Source: Urechidicola croceus | GTDB lineage: Bacteria > Bacteroidota > Bacteroidia > Flavobacteriales > Flavobacteriaceae | Assembly (NCBI GenBank): GCA_905181865.1 | Contig: CAJIZG010000001.1 | Coordinates: 62,001-126,000 of the forward strand | Length of the DNA: 64,000 bases | Direction of reading: 5' to 3' | Shown here: piece by piece, positions 38,555-42,667 of the stretch | Layout: every line of letters begins with the position of its first letter | Numbering within the stretch: position 1 is the first letter of the stretch | Made by a program: the position numbers and the translations under genes | The notes under the pieces: model-generated | Databases searched by the model: none | What the model was told of the DNA's origin: nothing | The model's input: only the letters and a program-made list of their open reading frames with translations

Positions 38555-38562
38555 TATCTTTG
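38555..38562 (+). promoter_or_regulatory. -7 box TATCTTTG of the rsmB-like gene
   Basis: A perfect TAnnTTTG box ending 21 bases before the ATG at 38584. It overlaps an upstream in-frame TTG at 38560, which rules that codon out as a start. Confidence 0.5.
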
Positions 38563-38583
38563 CAGACTAAATTTTTCAACGAT

Positions 38584-39792
38584 ATGAGGTTACATAGAAA
38601 CTTATGTTTTACAGTAATAGATTCATTAAATATGATATTTAATGATGGCGAATATGCAGGAAAAGTCGTTGAAAAGGCTTTAAAAAGAGATGCCCGTTGG
38701 GGAGCTCGTGACCGTAAATTTGTTGCTGAGACTATTTATGATGTAGTACGATGGAAACGTTTGTATAATGAAATTGCAGGTACAAAAGATCATTACTCAA
38801 GAGATAATATTTGGAAACTTTTTGCAGTTTGGGCTGTATTAAGGGGAATTGAATTACCAGATTGGAAGTATTTTGAAGGGACACCTGTAAGACGTATCAA
38901 AGGGAAATTTGATGAATGTCAAAATATACGTGCTATCAAAGAGTCGATTCCAAACTGGATGGACGAAGTTGGCGTTGAAGAATTGGGTGAAGCCGTTTGG
39001 ACGAGAGAACTAAATGCGCTAAACGAAAAAGCCGAAGTAATACTTCGGGTAAACACCTTAAAGATTGATATTTCTACACTTCAGAAATTCTTACTTAAAG
39101 AAGAAGTTGAAACAGAGAAAATTAGAGATAATCTTTCTGCATTGCGCTTGGTAGAGCGTAAAAATGTTTTTATAACAGAAGCTTTTAAAAGAGGTTATTT
39201 TGAAGTTCAAGATGCGTCTTCTCAGTTGGTTGCTCCCTATTTAGAAGTAAAACCAGGAATGCGTGTTATTGATACATGCGCAGGTGCTGGTGGAAAAACA
39301 TTGCATTTAGCCGCTTTAATGGAGAACAAAGGGCAAATCATTGCCATGGATATTTACGCAGGTAAATTGGCTCAATTAAAAAAACGTGGGAAACGTGCTG
39401 GTGTGCACAATGTTGATATGCGTGTGATCGAAAACACGAAAGTCATTAAAAAATTAAAAGATTCTGCAGATGCCGTATTGATTGATGCACCCTGTAGTGG
39501 AATAGGCGTTTTAAAACGCAATCCAGATTCTAAATGGAAATTACAACCAGAATTTTTAGATACGATTCGTAATACACAGGCAGAGATTTTAGATTCTTAT
39601 AGCCGTATGGTAAAACCCGGAGGTAAGTTGGTCTATGCTACGTGCTCTATTTTACCTTCTGAAAATCAACATCAGATTGAGAAATTTTTAGAAACACATA
39701 CAGACTTCTCTTTTGTTTCAGATAAAAAAGTACTTCCATCAAAATCTGGATTCGACGGATTTTATATGGCGTTGGTAGAAAGGAATAAATAG
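38584..39792 (+). CDS. RsmB/NOP-family rRNA (cytosine-C5) methyltransferase
   Basis: 402 residues from the ATG at 38584. An N-terminal NusB-like helical domain (KRDARWGARDRKFVAETIYD) precedes a class I SAM core: motif I DTCAGAGGKTLHLAALM, AMDIYAGKLAQLKKR, the motif IV Cys in LIDAPCSGIGVLKRNPD, and the motif VI Cys in YATCSILPSENQHQIEKF. The two Cys are the pair used by m5C RNA methyltransferases. The target is probably 16S rRNA. A decayed second copy of its last 155 bases lies 1.7 kb downstream. Confidence 0.88.
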   Translation: MRLHRNLCFTVIDSLNMIFNDGEYAGKVVEKALKRDARWGARDRKFVAETIYDVVRWKRLYNEIAGTKDHYSRDNIWKLFAVWAVLRGIELPDWKYFEGTPVRRIKGKFDECQNIRAIKESIPNWMDEVGVEELGEAVWTRELNALNEKAEVILRVNTLKIDISTLQKFLLKEEVETEKIRDNLSALRLVERKNVFITEAFKRGYFEVQDASSQLVAPYLEVKPGMRVIDTCAGAGGKTLHLAALMENKGQIIAMDIYAGKLAQLKKRGKRAGVHNVDMRVIENTKVIKKLKDSADAVLIDAPCSGIGVLKRNPDSKWKLQPEFLDTIRNTQAEILDSYSRMVKPGGKLVYATCSILPSENQHQIEKFLETHTDFSFVSDKKVLPSKSGFDGFYMALVERNK

Positions 39793-39872: not shown

Positions 39873-40340
39873 TTATAATTGTTTGATCAAATATTGATAT
39901 ACCGGTCCTATAAAAATTGCCAAACCAAAACTTATCAAAGTTCCAATTAATATATATTCTGTTAGCTTTCGGTCTTTAGCTCTAGAGAGATCCCCAAACC
40001 TAAAAACAGATTTTGCGGCTATTAACAATCCTATGGCACTCCATTGATTCAATAGAATAAATCCAAATACAAAGAGGCGCTCTAGTATTCCTATATATTT
40101 CCCCGCGCTTTCTAATGAATCTTCAGAATTATCCTCTTCTAAACTCCATTTACTCATTATTATTTCCATTATAATAAATGACGCGAAGGAGATTATCAGC
40201 ACAGCAAGTAGTAGTAATAAGGATGCTGTTGTATATATTTTTTCGAGTTCTATTTGGTTTGAAAAATTGAGATAGACAACCAACCCTATTAAAAGCAGAT
40301 GCACTATTTGATCAATCGCAAATAGAACCCTAAGATTCAT
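39873..40340 (-). CDS. DUF3307 protein, C-terminal membrane part (separate frame)
   Basis: 155 residues, with about four hydrophobic segments (IVHLLLIGLVVYLNF, TASLLLLLAVLIISFASFII, LFVFGFILLNQWSAIGLLIA, LIGTLISFGLAIFIGPVYQYL). Its opening NLRVLFAIDQIVHLL matches the place where a single-chain DUF3307 protein of about 240 residues would continue from the upstream frame. The ATG lies at the end of an A7 tract inside the upstream gene, and the two frames overlap by 11 bases. It may be a coupled second ORF, a frameshifted half, or a product of slippage at the tract. Confidence 0.65.
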   Translation of the reverse strand: MNLRVLFAIDQIVHLLLIGLVVYLNFSNQIELEKIYTTASLLLLLAVLIISFASFIIMEIIMSKWSLEEDNSEDSLESAGKYIGILERLFVFGFILLNQWSAIGLLIAAKSVFRFGDLSRAKDRKLTEYILIGTLISFGLAIFIGPVYQYLIKQL

Positions 40341-40590
40341 TTTTTTCTTCGAAGCTTCCTTTTATTAAATCAATTATTAAGTGACTAACGACAATGATCC
40401 CTATAGATAGCCAATAGGACTTATCATTTCTTAACAATACCATAAGTGCTATTAGATGCACCAATCCATGTAGGTAAAAATATTTTGATTTATACATTTT
40501 GCTTTTTTTAGCTACTACCCAACTATTTGGCTGTAATACAAAATCGCCTATAACATGTGCAATTAATAATTTTATTACAAAGGCTATCAT
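40330..40590 (-). CDS. DUF3307 domain protein, N-terminal part
   Basis: 86 residues with three hydrophobic segments. Polar residues within or near them are H12, D16 and Q20 (AHVIGDFVLQ), H41 and H45 (LHGLVH), and H70, D74, K77 (SHLIIDLIK). This spacing recalls membrane-bound metal-dependent hydrolases, though that is inference. It starts two bases after satD, so the two are coupled. The frame ends at TAG right after an A7 tract, while the next frame carries the rest of the expected protein. Removing one A from the tract would give one continuous protein of about 240 residues. Confidence 0.7.
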   Translation of the reverse strand: MIAFVIKLLIAHVIGDFVLQPNSWVVAKKSKMYKSKYFYLHGLVHLIALMVLLRNDKSYWLSIGIIVVSHLIIDLIKGSFEEKNES

Positions 40591-40592
40591 AA

Positions 40593-41186
40593 TTAGGAAA
40601 TATTTATTTTATAAAATTCATTCATACTCATAATTTCTTCAAACCCACCTCTCTTAAGGGCTTCGCTTACACCACTTTGCAATTTATTGAGAAGTTTGGC
40701 CAAACTTTTTTGATTTTTTTTAGGGTTTTCTATAGCAGTCTTTATTACTTCAGAAACCGTACTGCTCCAGTTATTTGCAGTTAATAATGAAAGGTTAAAC
40801 ATGGTGTTTAATGATTGATCCAAATTTTTATTACCTGATTTTATTGCGAGTGTTTGTTTTTTCATTGCTTCAAAACACATGCCTGAATTCGCATATGCAG
40901 AACCATTGGCTTCGGTTATTTTTGGTGAACGGTACTTCTCTTCGCCGATACCAATTGCCATTCTAATATCCTGTAATTTTGTTTGTTTAATTGTGGCCTT
41001 AATATGAAGGGCGGCTATTACAGCCTTTTCAGGGGCTAATGATAATTGAAAACTATCTCCTCTATATATTTCCCAATTTTTAGGCTCGACTCCATATCGA
41101 TTCAAAGTCTCCTTAAGAGGACCTATCCAACGCTCAACTTCTCCTTTCCTAGAATTAATTATATCTCCAGTTATAACGGCTATCAT
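40593..41186 (-). CDS. SatD family protein with C-terminal helix-turn-helix
   Basis: 197 residues. The N-terminal 110 residues follow the SatD pattern: VITGDIINSR (D8), EIYRGDSFQLSL (D44), IRMAIGIGE (75-82) and GSAYANSG (95-102). The order of these motifs resembles class III nucleotide cyclases (metal Asp, GDxF, RIGI, GxxxNxA), which I infer rather than know for SatD. The C-terminus (about 159-185; QKSLAKLLNKLQSGVSEALK) is a convincing helix-turn-helix. It is probably a DNA-binding sensor that controls its own operon with DUF3307, since three evenly spaced dyads lie just upstream. Enzyme activity is unproven. Confidence 0.75.
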   Translation of the reverse strand: MIAVITGDIINSRKGEVERWIGPLKETLNRYGVEPKNWEIYRGDSFQLSLAPEKAVIAALHIKATIKQTKLQDIRMAIGIGEEKYRSPKITEANGSAYANSGMCFEAMKKQTLAIKSGNKNLDQSLNTMFNLSLLTANNWSSTVSEVIKTAIENPKKNQKSLAKLLNKLQSGVSEALKRGGFEEIMSMNEFYKINIS

Positions 41187-41204
41187 TTTTTATGTTTTTT
41201 TAAA

Positions 41205-41283
41205 TATATCGGTTTTATAGCCGATATACAAGTTTATCTGCAAATAAGCAGATAATTTAATATATCGGCTTATTTACCGATAT
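41205..41283 (-). promoter_or_regulatory. Three evenly spaced palindromic operator-like sites upstream of satD
   Basis: Dyad 1 is TATATCGG-N8-CCGATATA (41205-41228). Dyad 2 is TTATCTGC-N6-GCAGATAA (41234-41255). Dyad 3 is TATATCGG-N8-CCGATAT (41261-41283). Their centres at 41216.5, 41244.5 and 41272.5 are exactly 28 bp apart. The outer two share a sequence; the middle one differs at the core. They fill the region directly upstream of satD, whose product has an HTH. Confidence 0.7.
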
Positions 41284-41329: not shown

Positions 41330-41505
41330 CTACTTGCGCTATTCTCACTTCTGAAAATCAACATCAGATGGAGAAATTTCTATAAACACATACAGATTTC
41401 TATTTTGGGTCAGATAAAAAGGTCCTGCCTTCAAAATCTGGATTCGACAGATTTTATATGGTATTATTGAAGAAAAGCAAATGGACCTATTTGAAGCTTA
41501 AATAG
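41330..41505 (+). pseudogene. Decayed duplicate of the rsmB-like 3' end
   Basis: From 41330 the sequence aligns without gaps to 39638-39792, the end of the rsmB-like gene. Identity is about 80% by eye, and higher in the first 130 bases. In the gene's frame it reads TSENQHQMEKFL, a stop, then THTDFYFGSDKKVLP, SKSGFDRFYMVLLKK and a new ending to TAG at 41503-41505. It has no start and one internal stop. The block between the two copies holds only the satD/DUF3307 module. The short ORF 41282-41470 in another frame is not a gene. Confidence 0.8.
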
Positions 41506-41643: not shown

Positions 41644-42257
41644 TTACGAAATCCATATTGAAATCACTTCCTTAATAGTCCAATTACCCTCAGTTTTTTA
41701 AGATAAACTATGCTTCTATCTCCACCTAAACCTGCATATGTATTTCCCATCTCAAAAATTGCTTGTGTATTGTTCCCATTAAAAGCAATCCTTGAAAATG
41801 TAATAATACCATTAGCGTTCTCATATTCATTATAAAATTATTCCCAGTCATCATTTAAATCTTGGTTATCAAAAATATAGACTAATTCATCAGAAGATAT
41901 TACAATAATTTCATTTGTATCACTTTGGAATTGTTCTCTAAAATTCACTAATTTCTTATTTGAACCTCCATGAATTTAAACCAAAATTGTATCAAAATCT
42001 TGATTCTTTTCAATTAAATAATCACAATATTGATTCTCACAGTTTAAATCTATACTCGTGTTTGAAGTTTGGGATATTACGATTTCTTCAGAAGAATATC
42101 GTTCATTAATTACTAAAGAGTAGATATCATCTGAAATTTGGCCTGACTCCTTCAGCGAAAATTCAGGTTTAGTTTCTTTATCGTCATTATCACAACCTAA
42201 TAGTGAGAATCCTAACAACAATAAAACTGATACGTAAAAGAATAATCTGATTTTCAT
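41644..42257 (-). pseudogene. Degraded lipoprotein gene
   Basis: The start is a clear lipoprotein (KIRLFFYVSVLLLLGFSLLGC, then DNDDKE). The frame stops at TAA 41976-41978 but continues IHGGSNKKLVNFREQFQSD and VYIFDNQDLNDDWE to a second TAA (41838-41840), then NANGIITFSRIAFNGNNTQ and GGDRSIVYLKK. A missing base in an A-run near 41700 then shifts it; restoring one A gives TEGNWTIKEVISIWIS and a TAA at 41644-41646. Three lesions in about 204 codons. The family is unknown. Confidence 0.75.
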
Positions 42258-42667
42258 ATTTTTATGTTTAGATTTATTAGCTAATGCTTCATCTACTTAT
42301 TTGGTTATTTCGTATTAGCCATAATGTTGGCTAAACAGCCATGAGGTTTATTTTTTATTTAAAATTTAAGAAAAGCACTGTTGATAGTAATTTTCATAGC
42401 CTTATAAAATTAGAGAAATAATTGTTAAAATCAGAAGAAATTCCATATAAAAACTATATAACTCTTATTATGTCAACAGAGTACAGAATGAGGGACGAGA
42501 CAACGCATCATTATGCGATTCCTCTTCATGCCTCGTTCGGAATGAAAACATTTAACTTTCATGATTAATATCTTCCAGTTTTTATTCATTATTATCAACA
42601 TACACTTTAATATTGCTTAGGGAATAGTTATCTTTGCATTTTGTTAAACAACACAAACAATACGTAC
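42258..42667. other. Intergenic region upstream of purL with a nested hairpin
   Basis: About 410 bases without a gene. CGCAT (42504-42508) pairs with ATGCG (42513-42517), nested inside ACGAG (42495-42499) with CTCGT (42532-42536). It looks like a repeat element. A perfect -7 box TATCTTTG lies at 42629-42636, 32 bases before the purL ATG. Nothing else is recognisable. Confidence 0.45.
42629..42636 (+). promoter_or_regulatory. -7 box TATCTTTG of purL
   Basis: A perfect TAnnTTTG. The implied start of transcription, near 42640-42643, falls after the TTG at 42641 could be read, which supports the ATG at 42668. Confidence 0.5.

Follow-up and report, generated by a model that had tools for sequence, protein, structure and literature searches.

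SatD of Urechidicola croceus: a predicted nucleotide-cyclase-fold regulator with a 14-bp-pitch operator array and a membrane partner

Results

Layout and origin of the satD cassette

The window, a 64,000-nucleotide stretch of the Urechidicola croceus genome, carries a cassette of three minus-strand ORFs that run from 41186 to 39873 and encode SatD, a DUF3307 protein and a further membrane protein. As the first-pass annotation had stated, the DUF3307 ORF begins two bases after the SatD ORF and contains the His/Asp motifs named there (H-x3-D-x3-Q, H-x3-H and H-x3-D-x2-K); the start of the third ORF, of 155 aa, overlaps the DUF3307 stop. The features are as follows.

40593..41186, minus strand: satD coding sequence, 197 aa, intact; predicted N-terminal cyclase/palm-fold domain and C-terminal helix-turn-helix (HTH) (ORF, PF16264, AF2)
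40833..41186, minus strand: SatD residues 1-118, predicted nucleotide-cyclase/palm domain (AF2, Foldseek, profile comparison, conservation)
41163-41165, minus strand: SatD D8 codon
41055-41057, minus strand: SatD D44 codon
40644..40763, minus strand: SatD residues 142-181, HTH; recognition helix about 168-181; putative specificity residue 175
41207..41282, no strand: putative operator array, six alternately inverted half-sites TATCGG/TATCTG, 14-bp pitch
40330..40590, minus strand: partner ORF 1, DUF3307 part, 86 aa, conserved His/Asp
39873..40340, minus strand: partner ORF 2, 155 aa, constant C-terminal membrane module (GKYIGILER...AAKSVFRF...TEYILIGTL)
41330..41461, plus strand: decayed duplicate of the 3' end of a methyltransferase-like gene, 87% over 132 nt
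41976-42257, minus strand: small lipoprotein-like ORF, 93 aa (judged by eye), between the cassette and purL

The cassette is bracketed by an intact gene at 38560-39792, which reads by eye as an RNA methyltransferase, and by the copy at 41330-41461, which resembles the window's own tail of that gene (87%) more closely than it does the tails in sister genomes (no more than 77%). Among 11 sister genomes with the methyltransferase-like gene, two (G005 and G010) have purL immediately behind it, and the other nine gave no purL match within the stretch examined; in the window the cassette, the decayed copy and the small ORF precede purL, whose start is at 42641. From the sequence, this arrangement is best read as the SatD cassette having inserted where the methyltransferase-like gene ends, with duplication of the gene's tail. 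The presence of SatD within the genus is patchy: it was found in 6 of 14 genomes, all six with a partner gene, which is intact in four.

SatD and its predicted nucleotide-cyclase fold

SatD matched PF16264 over residues 2-181 at 33 bits against a cut-off of 29 (Pfam). The motifs from which a class III cyclase-like N-terminus had first been proposed are all present in the intact ORF, namely D8 in ITGDI, GDSF (D44), RMAIGIG (75-81) and GSAYANSG (95-102), as is the C-terminal HTH. The AF2 model (pLDDT 96.5, pTM 0.93) predicts the topology b1-a1-b2-b3-a2-b4-a3-b5 followed by a helical HTH domain. When this model was compared with the PDB by Foldseek (top 50 matches), Cas10 (Csm1/Cmr2) ranked first (E 6e-4), the class III adenylyl cyclase Ma1120 matched at E 2e-3 (prob 1.00; TM 0.43 by query and 0.52 by target), and UMP cyclases (8jsz, 7r65) and GGDEF domains were also returned. 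Only three matches reached E <= 0.001 and the long Cas10 alignments had an rmsd above 13, so the likeness is one at superfamily level. A sequence search of PDB chains with SatD returned no match, and the best profile match was at E 0.072 (helical designs and HTH proteins).

Profile comparison with hhalign gave a probability of 91.7 for 122 SatDs against 25 class III cyclases, 90.6 for 187 SatDs, 67.8 for the Pfam-type subset and a weak 8.5 for the flavobacterial SatDs alone; as a yardstick, class III cyclases against GGDEF domains scored 19.5. The controls were low, with column-shuffled (ten) and reversed cyclase profiles at no more than 0.5 and GGDEF controls at 1.1. In the profile alignment D8 and D44 are in register with the two cyclase metal aspartates, FxDI and IGDA. 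The N-terminal domain is thus almost certainly a nucleotide-cyclase/Cas10-palm fold as judged from the model and the profiles, in agreement with the initial proposal, and no non-cyclase fold was predicted. GGDEF domains, which had been named beside the cyclases as a possible fold family, did not hold up as the family of SatD: its motif is RGDSF, no GGDEF profile matched, and hhalign probabilities ranged from 0.9 to 47.2 over five SatD sets against a profile built from 23 of 25 GGDEF loci (one was omitted and one had an apparent stop).

Both aspartates are conserved across SatD homologs. All 98 SatDs that were collected independently of those motifs have D8 and D44, and among the same 98, S12 is found in 96 and Q47 in 93; in the pooled set the two aspartates are present in 187 of 187, a count that is partly circular because 80 of these loci were found with patterns containing D8/D44 and some ORFs were picked by motif. 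The 98 motif-free loci, together with the shuffled and reversed profiles, rule out chance motifs. The two exceptions at S12, L266 and L267, are divergent SatDs of the same genus with F at position 12 and KGDYLE in place of RGDSFQ, and each has an intact partner.

The class III transition-state Asn and Arg are not retained in this SatD: at the Asn position (aligned residue 99) N occurs in 0 of 187 SatDs and the residue here is A99, and at the Arg position (aligned residue 103) R occurs in 36 of 187 and the residue here is M103. SatD is likely to bind a nucleotide; that it synthesizes one is put at slightly below even odds. The missing residues speak for a pure sensor, in which a catalytically dead cyclase fold would bind nucleotide and switch DNA binding, and the partner would be a transporter or a stress protein and not a toxin. 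Several chromosomal pairs adjoin housekeeping-like genes (by eye), and satD is linked to acid tolerance in the available portions of PMC11323703 and PMC10326533, both of which fit such a sensor. This explanation is nevertheless somewhat unlikely, given that Asp6/Asp57 are named for the putative active site of mCpol in the accessible part of PMC12657218 and that D8/D44 are invariant in the motif-free SatDs. It is also opposed by Streptococcus pyogenes, in which satD is reported to be essential in emm1, emm28 and emm49 strains, yet is carried by 178 of 249 genomes (PMC11323703); an essential but accessory gene is what would be expected if satD restrains something harmful.

Operator array and recognition helix

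The half-sites upstream of satD start at 41207, 41221, 41235, 41249, 41263 and 41277, each inverted relative to its neighbor and 14 bp apart; six sites of 14 bp would amount to 84 bp, or about eight helical turns. In the assembly (3.42 Mb, 6 contigs, 97% complete), TATCGG-N8-CCGATA occurs exactly at two places, both in this array, and with one mismatch at four more, compared with 3 for a reversed control pattern. Three half-sites in register occur exactly only at this array, with two other places at 2 mismatches.

The arrangement was followed in 94 loci (L001-L094) chosen by SatD, comprising 13 loci gathered first, 80 loci from a pattern search of genome contigs and one viral contig. With a score for the best four half-sites within 200 bp upstream (maximum 24), 80 of 93 loci reached at least 22 at a pitch of 14, compared with no more than 1% for each of the other pitches between 9 and 20; the one remaining locus was left out because its leader was too short. 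By a cruder measure of palindromy, 68 of 88 loci stood apart from every one of 40 dinucleotide shuffles. The 80 arrays contain six half-sites in 50 cases and range from 4 to 11 (extension at >=4 of 6 matches), and they end a median of 22 bp before the start codon. The -7-box-like sequence TAnnTTTG was found in 47 of the 80 leaders, compared with 11.4 by mononucleotide shuffling, and lies within the array span in 39. Outside these loci, pitch-14 arrays scoring at least 22 were seen at 4 of 13 plasmid loci and at 15 of another 38 DUF3307 loci (or 16 of 39 rows when L147 and L230, which are the same place, are counted separately). No such array was found in the 30 Pfam-type SatD loci (L105-L134) or in the 12 loci read from one family group (f31/L242-L257 type).

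The half-site varies by clade while the 14-bp pitch recurs. Half-site distance correlated with recognition-helix distance over 77 loci (Mantel r 0.54), three of the 80 arrays having been left out of the covariation for want of an assignable orientation. The correlation persisted given the N-domain (partial 0.49, 0 of 500 permutations), and half-site against N-domain given the helix was -0.06. SatD column 175, which was picked post hoc, carries the most information on the half-site: E175 occurs with C at half-site position 4 in 44 of 44 loci, Q175 with TAT(T/A)A(G/T) in 13 of 13, and K175 with TATT(C/A)C in 5 of 5. C at position 4 is also found with A175 in 6 of 9 loci and with N175 in 1 of 1. 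Furthermore, Q and K are each found with an unchanged half-site in two dissimilar HTH backgrounds (L009 versus the L010 group, and L006 versus L007/L074). The residue-175 code was compared with ten additional loci that have E, Q or K at this position and score at least 22: it fits five (L138, L141, L163, L232 and L236) and is contradicted by L147, and L239, L221, L224 and L165 (K175 with other half-sites) do not fit or are unassignable. The code therefore holds close to the window and weakens with distance from it.

The first-pass annotation had noted an operator array, and its half-sites are now found to covary with the HTH of the adjacent gene. This covariation is the main reason to think that SatD itself binds the array; from the sequence comparisons, SatD very probably binds at its own promoter, and negative autoregulation of the operon is probable.

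Distribution of the gene pair

In all 94 of the loci L001-L094, SatD (89 of the ORFs found by motif and five variant-motif ones by reading) is followed by a gene that reads as DUF3307, mostly with an overlap of 4 or 7 nt. A count less biased toward SatD was made in 296 Bacteroidota genomes, of which 66 have SatD and 78 have DUF3307; a second, sub-cut-off DUF3307 match in the U. croceus genome itself was excluded from the 78. By Pfam thresholds alone, SatD lies directly upstream of 36 of the 78 DUF3307 places. Reading the 42 other places showed that this low co-occurrence is an artefact of sensitivity, as SatD was upstream on the same strand in 11 of 11 and 28 of 32 of the below-threshold places inspected (G200 is in both sets). 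In total, 74 of 78 DUF3307 genes in the Bacteroidota sample follow a SatD, so that the coupling first noticed at this one locus proved near-obligate; the gap between the genes reaches about 150 bp in some loci of family f31. DUF3307 genes without an upstream SatD are L243, L247 and L250, all full length, and L258, a partial gene; these four are not predicted by a strict antitoxin reading.

On plasmids, the pair is also recorded from Alpha- and Gammaproteobacteria, a Fusobacterium and haloarchaea. Thirteen of 19 plasmid records from one search were examined: two haloarchaeal records are annotated with SatD and DUF3307, and in the other 11 (L219-L229) the upstream gene reads as SatD and, where annotated, is called 'hypothetical protein'. 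L225/L229 and L219/L222 are close pairs, and the annotated SatD start in L222 looks too late. The pair makes up the main cargo of pEC34A (L219, 3770 bp), which also carries rop, mobA and a 51-aa ORF; six Klebsiella plasmids match pEC34A, five of them of 3770 bp, and a megablast search of the E. coli genome collection did not find the pEC34A pair. In Sphingomonas insulae, a plasmid (L226, 2024-4128) has the pair beside an annotated Pycsar effector and an adenylate/guanylate cyclase, and in P. fragi it lies near Xre/ParS and RelE genes. A phage origin was rejected, as neither SatD (query L105) nor the DUF3307 pair had a match among 50,697 phage records. IMG/VR contains one distant SatD-DUF3307 pair (contig L094) and no relative of the window's third ORF, and a BFVD search returned no match at E <= 0.001.

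These contexts bear on an anti-phage or toxin-antitoxin guard, in which a nucleotide from SatD would silence the membrane module, loss of the signal would lead to membrane damage as in Panoptes, and SatD would in addition autoregulate. The 3.77-kb E. coli/Klebsiella plasmids, the Pycsar genes in S. insulae and the Xre/ParS and RelE genes in P. fragi all point in this direction, as do the essential but accessory satD of S. pyogenes (PMC11323703, in part) and the two-gene layout of palm and membrane protein, which is that of OptSE in the available sections of PMC12657218 and PMC12657230. However, the plasmid contexts are few and come without a control, PADLOC matched 0 of 8 proteins, chromosomal copies adjoin housekeeping-like genes (by eye), three full-length DUF3307 genes have no SatD, and the predicted structure of the partner lacks a beta-barrel. 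On balance, a guard of this type is unlikely.

The membrane partner

The ORF at 40330-40590 is DUF3307 (PF11750; 80 bits against a cut-off of 23), and within the profile only positions 2-83 of 127 are matched. The 155-aa ORF at 39873-40340, which the first-pass annotation had overlooked in describing a two-gene unit, encodes the other half of the membrane partner; in the window the partner gene is split into 86 and 155 aa. It is a single ORF in 12 of the 12 relatives first compared, with 231-244 aa in ten, 269 aa in L013, where the start lies far upstream, and 177 aa in L008 (G007), where the partner is shortened. The split is a frame change near a run of A's (40330-40345, minus strand), and the second ORF has its own ATG; a sequencing error may lie behind it. 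The partner in G295 (L249) is also split at about the same loop, by an in-frame stop, into 83 and 131 aa.

Across 49 DUF3307 partners, D16, H41, H70 and H97 are invariant, and H12, Q20, H45, D74, K77 and D93 are conserved at 90% or more. Conservation of this kind would suit a membrane metal-dependent hydrolase with SatD as a regulator sensing its substrate or product, in line with the likeness to membrane metal hydrolases proposed initially. The motifs behind that proposal stand, but the hydrolase identity is not supported: the partner model has no likeness among solved structures (best Foldseek E 1.5), and the residues matching D93/H97 in the window sit on the second partner ORF. For the L014 partner the model shows ten helices and no more than isolated bridge residues, and a beta-barrel was looked for in it and not seen.

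The loci without DUF3307 weigh further against a hydrolase. A following DUF3307 match is absent from 38 of 74 SatD places, of which 30 (L105-L134) were inspected. In 29 of the 30, ten of which belonged to the training set of the module, a same-strand membrane module lies downstream, and the thirtieth locus, L109, ends with its contig. This module shares homology with the C-terminal third of the pair protein that contains DUF3307 and has the signature G-x-x-x-G-x-(L/I/V)-E-R-like start, A-x-K-x-x-x-R and (T/A/N)-(E/D)-Y-x-L-x-G-(T/N). It stands directly behind SatD in L116-L134, judging from its position a short protein (105-137 aa in the loci read), and farther on in L105-L108 and L110-L115, where it ends a longer membrane protein without a DUF3307 match (247 aa in L105, 239 aa in L112). 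None of the module relatives tested reached the cut-off of a Pfam or NCBIfam family, and below E 0.05 PHROG gave no match spanning the module. DUF3307 was accordingly replaced by the C-terminal module as the constant partner; because the module recurs where DUF3307 is unmatched, the unit cannot have the metal-site half as its core, and a hydrolase function regulated by SatD has little chance of being the explanation. The module itself may be toxic or growth-arresting when released, at odds a little short of even.

Discussion

The best overall explanation, to which we assign a probability of roughly 0.55, is that SatD is a cyclase/palm-fold autoregulator that governs the membrane module through a metal-bound nucleotide. 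One HTH would occupy each half-site, and the even, alternately inverted sites would arrange a row of protomers, typically six, with two kinds of two-fold contact; across the satD promoter this row would repress the satD-partner operon. The N-terminal domain would bind a metal-nucleotide through D8/D44, or make a cyclic nucleotide from it, and the nucleotide state would set repression, the activity of the co-translated membrane module, or both. The module would be the output, probably harmful when released. The interpretation offered in the first-pass annotation, a cyclase-fold DNA binder controlling its own membrane partner, is partly supported, and none of the three outcomes named there as refuting it was seen.

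A bolder version is that SatD and the module form a widespread and previously undescribed two-gene nucleotide-signalling switch found from Bacteria to haloarchaea, in which SatD would be synthase, effector inhibitor and polymeric autorepressor in one, its operator drifting with the recognition helix at a fixed 14-bp pitch, as a self-calibrating Panoptes-like guard; this is speculative and unlikely. If a Panoptes-like reading were true, the pair would be a widespread, transcriptionally self-controlled branch of nucleotide-based immunity or growth control, and it would explain a satD that is reported to be essential yet accessory in a Streptococcus. Even otherwise, the array offers a data set made by nature for studying a protein-DNA recognition code.

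Many genomes carry SatD and DUF3307 as annotated genes to which no function is assigned. No published mechanism for either was found in the open-licence PMC literature, among the matches listed; DUF3307 appears there in one paper, as annotation only, SATD has other senses in papers listed for that name, and SatD, in the portions available, is only named as a gene beyond the mentions of acid tolerance and essentiality. Both families were known before; the SatD fold, the operator array with its code and the constant C-terminal membrane module are new here, and together with the aspartates they turn the pair into a testable system.

Comparison with known systems

Panoptes (OptS mCpol with OptE/2TM-beta) is the nearest mechanistic analogue of the SatD pair, by analogy and not as its family. 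As described in the accessible parts of PMC12657218 and PMC12657230, the cyclic dinucleotide of mCpol keeps a membrane effector from killing, so that the first protein restrains the second. Like the SatD pair, Panoptes is a two-gene operon with a membrane partner, and its first protein has a minimal Cas10-type palm with two active-site aspartates (from the same partial sources). SatD has Cas10 palm-type Foldseek matches and two aspartates of its own; it differs in its HTH and operator array, and in a partner predicted to be helical with no beta-barrel. The name SatD does not occur in either paper (PMC12657218, PMC12657230).

Pycsar, in which the uridylate cyclase PycC is paired with a transmembrane effector, likewise sets a class III cyclase-like fold next to a membrane protein. 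SatD lacks the class III Asn/Arg and has a DNA-binding domain, and none of the 8 proteins matched Pycsar or another catalogued defence system in PADLOC; Pycsar is therefore also treated as an analogue and not as the family of SatD. With the class III nucleotidyl cyclases SatD appears to have the fold in common, and both metal aspartates are in register, but the transition-state Asn/Arg are missing and the domain is fused to an HTH. Cyclase-HTH fusions occur in mycobacteria.

In AbiE-type toxin-antitoxin operons, as far as the available part of PMC7319586 describes them, a regulator stands beside its partner, the promoter has inverted repeats and the partner is possibly harmful, as in the SatD pair. 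SatD differs from AbiE (PMC7319586, same part) in its predicted nucleotide-cyclase fold, in the 14-bp alternating array and in a partner whose toxicity is putative. What the SatD operon has in common with such toxin-antitoxin systems is a set of repeats at its own promoter matched to the HTH of the regulator, seen here in the array and its covariation, through which SatD would repress its own operon.
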